A stretch of 10,126 nucleotides of DNA. Origin: an uncultured Mollicutes bacterium (GTDB taxonomy: Bacteria > Bacillota_I > Bacilli_A > MAG-NZ). Shown here one piece after another: positions 2,311 to 4,358 of the stretch (the first letter of the stretch is position 1; the number at the start of each line of letters is the position of its first letter). Both the position numbers and the translations under genes were made by a program. The notes under the pieces are model-generated. The model had not been told where the DNA came from, did not search any database, and saw nothing but the letters and a program-made list of their open reading frames with translations. Where the stretch lies: contig CAJYBF010000017.1 of the NCBI GenBank assembly GCA_913064935.1, forward strand, positions 1 through 10,126. Direction: 5' to 3'.

Positions 2311-3102
2311 CTATTGTATTATTGATTTTATGAATATTGGTTCTATAGTATTTTTATCTATACTACAGACGTGAGTAATGTTACGTGCAGCTTCTGGGTA
2401 TTTAGGACTTAAGAAACAACCAAGTAAATCATTGCTATAGAATCCACCAACAGTTTTGTAAAGCGCAATTTCTTCTTTAGTTGCAACTTTCTTAAGATCA
2501 TTCCAGTTGCCAAATGTTCCATATTGCTGTTTGATCTTAAATCCAGCAGAGTGGAGTTCATCTTCAATCTCTTCTTTCTTTAATTCGTTAATATGGTTAC
2601 GTGCCATTTTATAACGTTCAGAATAAACAGGCATACTAAATATCAAAACACCATCTGGTTTTAATAGACGTTTAAACGCTTTTAACATTCTGCGACCATA
2701 CTCCATTTGCATATGTTCAAATACTTCGAAGTTAACTATCACATCAAACTGGCCAAACTCTCTTTTAAGTTTTCTCCAATCAGATATAATATTAAATTCA
2801 TCTTTAACATGAAAATTCTTGCGGTTAACAGGATCTTTAATTTTATTCAGATCAACACCGACATACATTTCTGGTACTGAGTTAATATTAGATCCACCAA
2901 GACTTCTTGCAAATGGCATCTCTTGACCACAACCAACATCGAGTACTTTAACTTTTCTGTTAACGTATTTAGATGCAAAACCCCAGCGAAATATATGGCC
3001 GAGATAATCTTTATGAGGTTGATATTTAAATTGCGCAAGTTTGAGTTGCGTCTGATCAAAGTCACGTGTGACTTCTAATCCGTCTTTTGCTCTTGATGTC
3101 AT
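2311..3102 (-). CDS. Class I SAM-dependent methyltransferase
   Basis: A 263-residue protein with a Rossmann-type SAM methyltransferase core: motif I VLDVGCG at 53-59, the acidic loop GVDL at 82-85, FDVIVNFEVFEHM at 119-131, and the strand LLKPDGVLIFSMP at 146-158. This arrangement is that of UbiE/type-11-like small-molecule or protein methyltransferases. I see none of the catalytic motifs of DNA base methyltransferases: no DPPY/NPPY and no PCQ. The first 45 residues and the last 60 (GGFYSNDLLGCFLSPKYPEAARN) are not familiar. The ATG overlaps the upstream stop as TAATG, with GGGGA 9 bases before it. Its place in the nucleotide-modification operon suggests a role in tailoring a nucleotide or DNA, but the acceptor is unknown. 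Confidence 0.85.
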   Translation of the reverse strand: MTSRAKDGLEVTRDFDQTQLKLAQFKYQPHKDYLGHIFRWGFASKYVNRKVKVLDVGCGQEMPFARSLGGSNINSVPEMYVGVDLNKIKDPVNRKNFHVKDEFNIISDWRKLKREFGQFDVIVNFEVFEHMQMEYGRRMLKAFKRLLKPDGVLIFSMPVYSERYKMARNHINELKKEEIEDELHSAGFKIKQQYGTFGNWNDLKKVATKEEIALYKTVGGFYSNDLLGCFLSPKYPEAARNITHVCSIDKNTIEPIFIKSIIQ

Positions 3103-3398
3103 TATTTATTCCCCGTAGTTTTATCGGTTAAATATTCAGAAGGATCAGAAATATAGATCTCTTCTTTTATTAATTCTATTATGGTGCTATTTTTTTTCCA
3201 GACTATTCGACCAGTAGCTATGTTCATCACTAAAGTACTGTTATGGTTTAAATCAATTCTGGTATTACCGATCTTGCAGATCTTATAGAAATTAATTGAG
3301 CCATCAGTATCATCTATCTGTACTGTTATACCAGGACTGATTTTACCAAGTTCTATTTTAGCAACTACTTCATTTTTTCTATGTTCATAAATGCTCAT
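3102..3398 (-). CDS. Hypothetical protein, 98 aa
   Basis: The ATG at 3398 has GAAGAGA upstream, and the gene ends in TAATG shared with the methyltransferase start. The 98-residue product is predicted by eye to be mostly beta strand: VVAKIELG, ITVQIDDTDG, INFYKICKIG, TLVMNIATGRIVWKK. It has a charged C-terminal tail. There is no signal peptide, membrane segment or catalytic motif that I can name. The -1-frame extension of the histone-like gene ends 14 bases inside this gene, so the two are likely co-translated. Function unknown. Confidence 0.8.
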   Translation of the reverse strand: MSIYEHRKNEVVAKIELGKISPGITVQIDDTDGSINFYKICKIGNTRIDLNHNSTLVMNIATGRIVWKKNSTIIELIKEEIYISDPSEYLTDKTTGNK

Positions 3399-3600
3399 GT
3401 AATAATCTCTTCATTAGGTTTCTTAAAGTTTTTTTCGTATTGTTTTTAGAGCATGTTGATGTAATAAACCCAGGGGCGTTTTCTGTGGGTTCTTTTAACC
3501 TTACTTTAACAAGGTATAATCCTAATTCGTTATTTAAGTCTGAGACAGAGTATAAGAACTCTGTCCCATTCCTTGTTTTTAAAGTTAAACCCCTTTCTAC
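3385..3600 (-). CDS. Start-less -1-frame extension of the H1-like gene (possible programmed frameshift product)
   Basis: After the TAG of the H1-like gene, the -1 frame is open for 71 codons. It runs from GTA at 3600 to TGA at 3385-3387 and overlaps the next start by 14 bases. There is no ATG, GTG, TTG or CTG in frame before codon 62 (ATG at 3412-3414), so it cannot start independently in a normal way. Upstream the frame is closed by TAA at 3628-3630, leaving a short overlap with the zero frame that contains the heptamer A AAA AAG. The translation looks like ordinary protein: GTEFLYSVSDLNNELGLYLV, then VRLKEPTENAPGF, then a basic helix TLRNLMKRLLHEHL. TTA/AAA-style codon use matches the neighbours. 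I infer a 181-residue fusion made by -1 slippage, or a split caused by a homopolymer error or mutation. Confidence 0.55.
   Translation of the reverse strand, partial: VERGLTLKTRNGTEFLYSVSDLNNELGLYLVKVRLKEPTENAPGFITSTCSKNNTKKTLRNLMKRLLHEHL
3542..3567 (-). repeat. Perfect 8-bp stem-loop downstream of the slip site
   Basis: GACAGAGT at 3544-3551 pairs with ACTCTGTC at 3558-3565 across a 6-base loop. One more G-C pair (3542/3567) lies outside a mismatch. On the transcript it begins about 33 bases after A AAA AAG. No run of U follows it on the minus strand, so it is not a standard terminator. It lies inside the -1-frame coding stretch. It could be an RNA structure affecting frameshifting or stability, or chance. 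Confidence 0.45.
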
Positions 3601-3929
3601 TTTTTTGTAGAACGACGAGTTTTCTTTTTACCTACGTGCTTTTTCTTAGCAGTAGTTTTATCTTTGCCAGCAGAAGCTTTCACAGTAGCTTTCTTTACAG
3701 TTGTTTTTGCTGTAGCTTTCTTCACAACATATTTACCATGCTGTTCTTCTGTGATCACGCCTTCGCGTTTTAACAGGCCAGAATAATATTTAACATGTGA
3801 TTCATCAGCTACAGACGTTGGGCATTTTTTACCTACGTCTTTTAAAATCTTAGCTACTGTAGAACCAGCAATGATACCTTCACTGATAACAGATTTTACT
3901 GTTACTTTTACTTTCGTGCTCTTAGCCAT
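3597..3929 (-). CDS. Histone-H1-like basic protein with small N-terminal helical domain
   Basis: A 110-residue protein. Residues 10-66 form a compact predicted domain (VAKILKDVGKKCPTSVADESHVKYYSGLLKREGVI) that aligns with the C-terminal half of the neighbouring 127-residue protein. Residues 70-110 are a Lys/Ala/Thr tail (KKATAKTTVKKATVKA, then KKKTRRSTKK) like the tails of histone H1 and bacterial H1-like proteins. I infer that the tail binds DNA or RNA non-specifically and that the N-terminal domain provides specificity. The start has a strong AGGAGA site 8 bases upstream. A promoter-like -10 box lies ahead of it. The frame ends at TAG straight after a slippery A AAA AAG and may be extended by 71 residues. 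The domain resembles a motif I associate with small phage proteins, but I cannot name it precisely. Confidence 0.85.
   Translation of the reverse strand: MAKSTKVKVTVKSVISEGIIAGSTVAKILKDVGKKCPTSVADESHVKYYSGLLKREGVITEEQHGKYVVKKATAKTTVKKATVKASAGKDKTTAKKKHVGKKKTRRSTKK
3600..3606 (-). promoter_or_regulatory. Candidate -1 slippery heptamer A AAA AAG
   Basis: On the minus strand the H1-like frame ends ACA AAA AAG TAG. The heptamer A AAA AAG has the X XXY YYZ phase in the zero frame and is the slip site of E. coli dnaX and many phage frameshifts. Slippage here continues with GTA GAA AGG into the 71-codon open frame. The in-frame stop directly after the heptamer is a known kind of stimulatory context. 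Neither a typical hairpin 5-9 bases downstream nor a clear internal Shine-Dalgarno site 10-14 bases upstream is evident. Confidence 0.5.
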
Positions 3930-3974: not shown

Positions 3975-4358
3975 CTATTTCTTACTTTGGTGTTGAGATT
4001 CTTTCCAATCTTTGTAGGCTTTACATCTTCTTGGTGCATGTTCTGGACCAATTATTCCATCTCTGAACAGAGTTGATCTATACCACGAGATATGGCTATT
4101 GTCAAATGCTGATTCAGGAAATTCTTTCTGTACCGCATCGACTATAGTTTTATCATCTTCACTTTTTAAGATCATATCTAACGTTAGTGTTTTAATAGAA
4201 CATTTTTTCTTTGGAAATAACTTTTCAAGTTTAGCTTTGATCTTTGGTACAGAAGGAGCAGATACAATCTTTGGTCCTCCTTCAACTGAGTGCGCATGCC
4301 ATGAGTACTTAGTTGCACGTTCAACTTCGAATAGTTTACCATTTACGGTGATTATCAT
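3975..4358 (-). CDS. Small protein with C-terminal domain shared with the H1-like protein
   Basis: A 127-residue protein in two parts. Residues 1-50 (MIITVNGKLFEVERATKYSW, then a Lys-rich stretch) look like a small beta unit followed by a helix. Residues 56-106 (KTIVDAVQKEFPESAFDN, then SHISWYRSTLFRDGII) align without large gaps to residues 9-61 of the H1-like protein. Shared positions include S-H, a Y two to three residues later, L-x-R and G-I/V-I. The C-terminus is basic. The start carries the repeated AGGATTAAGATTATG leader, and the preceding gene's stop lies within that leader. I infer a nucleic-acid-binding early protein; no function is established by the sequence. Confidence 0.85.
   Translation of the reverse strand: MIITVNGKLFEVERATKYSWHAHSVEGGPKIVSAPSVPKIKAKLEKLFPKKKCSIKTLTLDMILKSEDDKTIVDAVQKEFPESAFDNSHISWYRSTLFRDGIIGPEHAPRRCKAYKDWKESQHQSKK

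Follow-up and report, generated by a model that had tools for sequence, protein, structure and literature searches.

An H1-like gene in a phage contig is followed, in the -1 frame, by a long open stretch with no usual start codon near its beginning. The question that this locus raises is whether ribosomes reach that stretch by slipping back one nucleotide at the end of the gene. The window, by which we mean the whole 10,126-base contig, had been placed in the bin of a 342-contig draft genome and is of phage origin, with genes for DNA polymerase, helicase and nucleotide metabolism; its main genes all lie on the minus strand. A cluster at 84-2174 holds a deaminase-like gene (by eye), a thymidylate-synthase-like gene and a MazG-like plus thymidylate-kinase-like gene in an order resembling that of MW202621, where one cluster gene is annotated as a pyrimidine hydroxymethylase. 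This cluster may point to modified pyrimidines in the phage DNA.

The H1-like gene (3597..3929, minus strand) encodes 110 residues, an N-terminal domain common to its relatives joined to a K/A/T-rich C-terminal part; the C-terminal half is lysine-rich and of low complexity, as judged by eye from its composition. "H1-like" is a label for composition only: no Pfam family scored above cut-off for the window protein, and HC2 reached an E-value of 0.45 in one of five members. Histone H1-like proteins of bacteria include those of the Hc1/HC2 and AlgP type. Homologues of the gene are P0002, RSP_0027 and genes of the phages G296, G297 and G300. Upstream lies a paralogue of 127 amino acids (3975..4358, minus strand), with a C-terminal domain similar to the one at the N terminus of the H1-like protein; genes similar to this shared domain were also seen in L004 and L006 and, by eye, in AXL_3 and PW916. 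The next gene downstream (3102..3398, minus strand) encodes a 98-amino-acid homologue of RSP_0025, and the order H1-like gene, tail, 98-aa gene is kept in the window, in RSP and, with a gap, in G296, where the 98-aa homologue lies some 350 bases past the tail.

As the initial annotation had described, the 3' end of the H1-like gene (3929..3597) reads CGT CGT TCT ACA AAA AAG TAG. The slippery heptamer A_AAA_AAG (3600..3606, minus strand) is thus in the 0 frame, directly before the TAG stop codon (3597..3599, minus strand), in a phase that fits slippage by -1. From there the -1 frame runs on for 71 codons without a stop, as had also been claimed, from GTA at 3600 to TGA at 3387-3385 (3385..3600, minus strand), and ends 14 bases inside the 98-aa gene. 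That this tail begins with a start-less stretch was likewise correct, though its extent, given as 61 codons, is 62: the sole ATG, GTG or TTG is an ATG at codon 63, at +185 from the stop. An open run of 71 codons has a probability of about 0.0023 by chance, given the base composition of the region. On the opposite strand (3440-3610), an antisense frame is open for 56 codons from a TTG.

Neither the heptamer nor the overlap is remarkable when the window is taken alone. In this lysine-rich gene 48% of synonymous shuffles place A_AAA_AA[AG] in the overlap, and 53% equal the overlap length. A heptamer of another type, TTTAAAA, lies outside the overlap at -247.

Start-less tails in related phages

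Because the window heptamer by itself is unsurprising, the weight of the frameshift case lies with the relatives. The polymerase alignment gave seven IMG/VR loci, and the H1 alignment, searched against 14 records, revealed an H1-like gene in three of them, the IMG/VR phage contigs G296, G297 and G300. These phages are deeply diverged, with polymerases 55, 46 and 43% identical to that of the window. Behind each of their H1-like genes the -1 frame encodes a start-less tail, and an in-frame A_AAA_AAG lies within the overlap over which the -1 frame is open. A profile picked up only the G296 tail (one of the 14 records, E 0.003); the tails of G297 and G300 came to light when the -1 frame behind their H1-like genes was read. 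In the G296 gene (110 aa) two heptamers precede the stop, A_AAA_AAG at -31 and A_AAA_AAA at -7; A_AAA_AAG is found at -139 in G297 (124 aa; last -1 stop at -166) and at -82 in G300 (124 aa; last -1 stop at -106). The first ATG, GTG or TTG in the tails is a GTG, at +152 in G296, +59 in G297 and +68 in G300. Directly behind the tails of G297 and G300 follows a frame that runs into a methyltransferase. AXL_3 and PW916 also have a basic gene before a methyltransferase, and no tail was noticed there by eye. At another locus, L003 (9947-13581), the phage DNA polymerase is interrupted; by eye, the frame between its halves is intein-like, with a homing-endonuclease-like protein.

The comparison of homologues proposed by the initial annotation gives a split gene in all three relatives, with the -1 relation and A_AAA_AAG kept. 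When the Pseudomonas phages RSP and KPP23 are included (KPP23 is nearly RSP, and both are counted), a -1 frame tail is present at all six H1-like genes with readable downstream DNA. In four of the six, the -1 frame lacks ATG, GTG and TTG throughout the overlap and for at least 59 nt beyond the stop, and all four of these carry A_AAA_AAG in the -1-open overlap, in the X_XXY_YYZ register of the 0 frame. Their tails extend 63-78 residues past the stop and are basic, with a pI of 9.7-10.1 (9.7 for the window tail). A tail family search returned no credible family match; a PHROG "tail sheath" match for one of the four tails (E 0.001) was dropped, the other three tails giving it no support.

Tail similarity is strong in five of ten pairs: window-G296 (z 11.5), window-RSP (7.4), G296-G297 (6.9), G296-RSP (6.5) and G297-G300 (17.6). 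The window and G296 tail proteins are 39% identical, a score reached in 0 of 2000 shuffles. Similarity is weak or non-significant for window-G297 (148/2000), window-G300 (54/2000), G296-G300 (230/2000), RSP-G297 (1618/2000) and RSP-G300 (1290/2000). The two start-less pairs are linked through G296-G297 (0/2000), through the similarity of window and G296 to RSP, and through position; the tail is conserved in its position and, among part of the pairs, also in its sequence. In four tail pairs the -1 frame was by far the best of the six frames (z 11.4, 7.8, 16.9 and 6.1). One antisense frame also rose above the shuffles in the same pairs, below the -1 frame (z 3.2, 4.3, 3.6 and 0.8), which is probably a codon-mirror effect.

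Other searches yielded no relative. This was the case in IMG/VR for the window H1 and tail as single sequences and for the alignments A1, A2 and A3, in genome_contigs for P0002 and the helicase alignment, and in the protein database for the window tail. The phage collection gave no relative for the window H1, the G300 H1, the G297 tail or the 127-aa protein, and single matches there to the window tail (E 4) and the 98-aa protein (E 0.08) were dropped. H1 as one protein in 296 whole genomes, and H1 alignments in 395 and 392 (overlapping sets), recovered the window's own contig only. Tail matches in two of the 296 genomes (G005, E 0.009; G099, E 0.0005) fell inside 294-residue open frames in unrelated context and were set aside, as were weak H1-domain matches in G304 and G308, located in other genes.

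A shifted frame or a separate protein

The main alternative to frameshifting is that the tail is a separate protein made by coupled translation from an unusual start. Such an arrangement, with a real ATG, does occur in RSP and KPP23, the closest named phages by polymerase (44.5% identical). The RSP trio RSP_0027/0026/0025 is syntenic with the H1-like gene, tail and 98-aa gene of the window: the local score of the N-terminal domain of the basic protein RSP_0027 against the H1-like domain was reached in 1 of 5000 shuffles, and those of RSP_0026 (67 aa) against the window tail and of RSP_0025 against the 98-aa gene in none of 5000. Three mismatched pairs gave no score by local alignment (1907, 2108 and 2485 of 5000), though one of these three does score in the global test (25/2000). 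RSP_0026 lies in the -1 frame relative to RSP_0027 and starts at an ATG that overlaps the end of that gene (ATGA); KPP23 shares both this tail protein and the 4-base overlap. In the window, a Shine-Dalgarno-like AAAGGGG (3590..3596, minus strand) just past the stop would also suit a separate protein. A TTA codon in the tail frame (3580-3582) lies 7 nt past it and could serve as the unusual start, as could the stop-overlapping GTA.

Several observations speak against this explanation and make it unlikely. The four start-less genes have no ATG, GTG or TTG near the beginning of the tail. In G297 the -1 frame is open over 55 overlapping codons, from 27 nt before the heptamer, an extent reached in 0 of 5000 shuffles and needless for a downstream gene; the overlaps of G300 (35 codons) and G296 were equalled in 4.4% and 17% of shuffles. 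Furthermore, the four genes together contain five A_AAA_AA[AG] heptamers, the only type counted here, and every one falls inside the overlap; elsewhere in the genes 5.66 would be expected and there are none (P 0.0008). Shuffles with at least four inside and none elsewhere made up a fraction of 0.00025 of 4000. By synonymous-codon shuffling, the probability of a heptamer in all four overlaps is 0.48 x 0.22 x 0.05 x 0.20 = 0.0011, or 0.0023 without the window, which had been picked for its heptamer. These figures overstate independence, since the four start-less genes form two sister pairs, window/G296 and G297/G300.

The initial annotation had named relatives with an independent tail gene as evidence against frameshifting. 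RSP and KPP23, with their own ATG, do count against it in that respect, but an X_XXY_YYZ slippery heptamer is absent from the RSP H1-like gene, while A_AAA_AAG is present in each of the four start-less genes. With ultrafast bootstrap values of 97-100, the polymerase tree groups the phages as ((window, G296), (RSP, (G297, G300))); it was rebuilt without the long-branched rows L018 and MW202621, and four IMG/VR polymerases were taken as its outgroup. RSP thus adjoins two start-less relatives. If the start-less form is old, one change, the gain of a start towards RSP, would explain the states; otherwise two would be needed. The genes seem to have either an own start or a slippery heptamer, one in place of the other, and this favours frameshifting in the window.

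A second alternative, less probable again, is slippage of RNA polymerase along the A run, which would leave a fraction of the mRNA with an altered A count that encodes the fusion. The sites do contain runs of 6-7 A, but a run of 6 is on the short side for slippage during transcription, and the in-phase X_XXY_YYZ points to the ribosome, as do the Shine-Dalgarno-like sites that G297 and G300 have at ribosomal spacing.

That a single gene was split by a fresh mutation, or by an assembly error of one base, had been regarded as the main alternative, and the homopolymer at the junction would fit it. This view no longer holds. An error in one contig is insufficient because three separately assembled relatives, G296, G297 and G300, share the -1 relation, as do RSP and KPP23, with heptamers at different places; a single-frame fusion was found in none of the six genes read. 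The explanation is largely refuted. Equally improbable is a decaying remnant of an RSP-type gene that has lost its start (RSP does have an ATG) and is no longer made, given that the window-G296 tail similarity described above is strongest in the -1 frame and that an old start would require at least two losses on the polymerase tree.

Taken together, these comparisons with G296, G297 and G300 support the original proposal of a -1 frameshift that fuses the tail to the histone-like protein. We put the probability of conserved -1 programmed frameshifting, by which the H1-like protein is made both as such and with a basic extension at its C terminus, at roughly 85%. The majority of ribosomes would terminate at the TAG (3599-3597) and release the 110-residue H1-like protein. 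A fraction would slip by -1 on A_AAA_AAG, where tRNA-Lys pairs anew with AAA AAA, and would read 71 more codons to produce a 181-residue form with a small basic extension (pI 9.7). That ribosomes slip at the heptamer we infer from the sequence. By analogy with the fused product of IS3 elements, the long form may be a modified DNA-binding protein with an added module.

Candidate stimulators and a hairpin in the tail

Shine-Dalgarno-like sites and a hairpin may stimulate the predicted slippage. Anti-Shine-Dalgarno pairing along the genes identified AAGGAG in G297, 10 nt before the heptamer (-8.0 kcal/mol, best 0.8% of the gene), and AAAGGAGGT in G300, 14 nt before it (-13.0 kcal/mol, best 0.3% of the gene). 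The same analysis found no Shine-Dalgarno-like stimulator before the heptamer in the window or G296. A review puts the spacing at which such sites stimulate -1 shifts at 9-14 nt (PMC5009743).

All four start-less genes have a hairpin in the coding sequence of the tail. In the window, where the initial annotation had not mentioned it, its 11-bp stem, with one G-U pair, spans 3541..3568 (minus strand); the stem has 15 bp in G296 and 13 in G297, and is imperfect in G300. Scanned in steps of 5, the 10-kb coding strand of the window has its most stable 45-nt fold at this hairpin, and the tail hairpin is the most stable such fold in the examined 4.5 kb of G296 and of G297, but not in the 5.5 kb of G300. 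Its strength was matched by synonymous shuffles of the codons in 4 of 400 cases for the window, 0 for G296 and 3 for G297, and in a non-significant 71 of 400 for G300; the strongest fold at the RSP tail gave 35/400. The loop centres fall at columns 23, 22, 22 and 21 of the tail alignment, and the stem sequences differ.

The usual distance from heptamer to stimulator is 5-9 nt. The stem starts about 26 nt past the heptamer in the window, 19 nt past the nearer of the two heptamers in G296, and in G297 and G300 more than 100 nt past it. The hairpin does not fit a stimulator at fixed spacing, as its place in the tail is kept but the distance to the heptamer varies. Rather doubtfully, the hairpin could be a separate control element, e.g. 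one at which the H1-like protein or the longer product binds its own mRNA, in which case the frameshift would act as a feedback switch on the ratio of the two forms. G297 has a second very stable fold some 50 nt past the heptamer (L033, 1681-1725), the second strongest of the 4.5 kb examined.

Comparison with known systems

The best-known cases of programmed frameshifting in tailed phages concern capsid proteins and tail chaperones. The mechanism proposed here is known, while the gene family using it appears to be new. Exact-word searches of open-licence papers found no phage frameshifting paper on histone-like, nucleoid-associated or early DNA-binding proteins, none on H1-like phage proteins, and none joining the heptamer with dnaX and phage, which at that scope is weak evidence. 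In passages from PRFect (PMC10274946), tail chaperones are the main annotated phage frameshift class, and none of the other genes listed in them is H1-like. If the reading is right, a frameshift governs how much of each form of a DNA-binding H1-like protein is made, in phages that are deeply diverged. It would then be worth re-examining start-less -1 frames that follow lysine-rich genes, as gene callers that require a start would miss them.

The A_AAA_AAG heptamer of the H1-like genes is that of Escherichia coli dnaX, where the -1 shift yields a shorter protein, whereas the shift proposed here would yield a longer one. A 5' Shine-Dalgarno stimulator, described for dnaX in a review (PMC5009743), has putative counterparts in G297 and G300 but none in the window and G296. 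The same review describes the OrfA/OrfAB system of the IS3 family, in which an upstream DNA-binding protein, able to act alone, is fused by frameshifting to a partly overlapping, often -1, frame. The H1-like gene likewise combines a putative DNA-binding upstream protein with an overlapping -1 frame; it differs from IS3 in its short tail, 63-78 aa past the stop, and in its setting, a phage replication and nucleotide-metabolism cluster.

Phage genes that make short and C-terminally extended forms by frameshifting are represented by the T3/T7 gene 10 capsid extension (PMC5009743) and the lambda-type tail assembly chaperones (PMC5009743; PRFect, PMC10274946). Unlike the H1-like protein, these are structural or assembly proteins. 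RSP and KPP23 share with the window the gene order and a -1 frame tail right after a basic gene with a domain of the H1-like type; they differ in the tail ATG within the ATGA overlap and, for RSP, in a gene free of slippery heptamers. With their ordinary start they offer a natural comparison of frameshift gain or loss. T7 gene 5.5-5.7 is another phage case in which frameshifting extends a nucleoid-related protein; that protein binds H-NS and is not H1-like.
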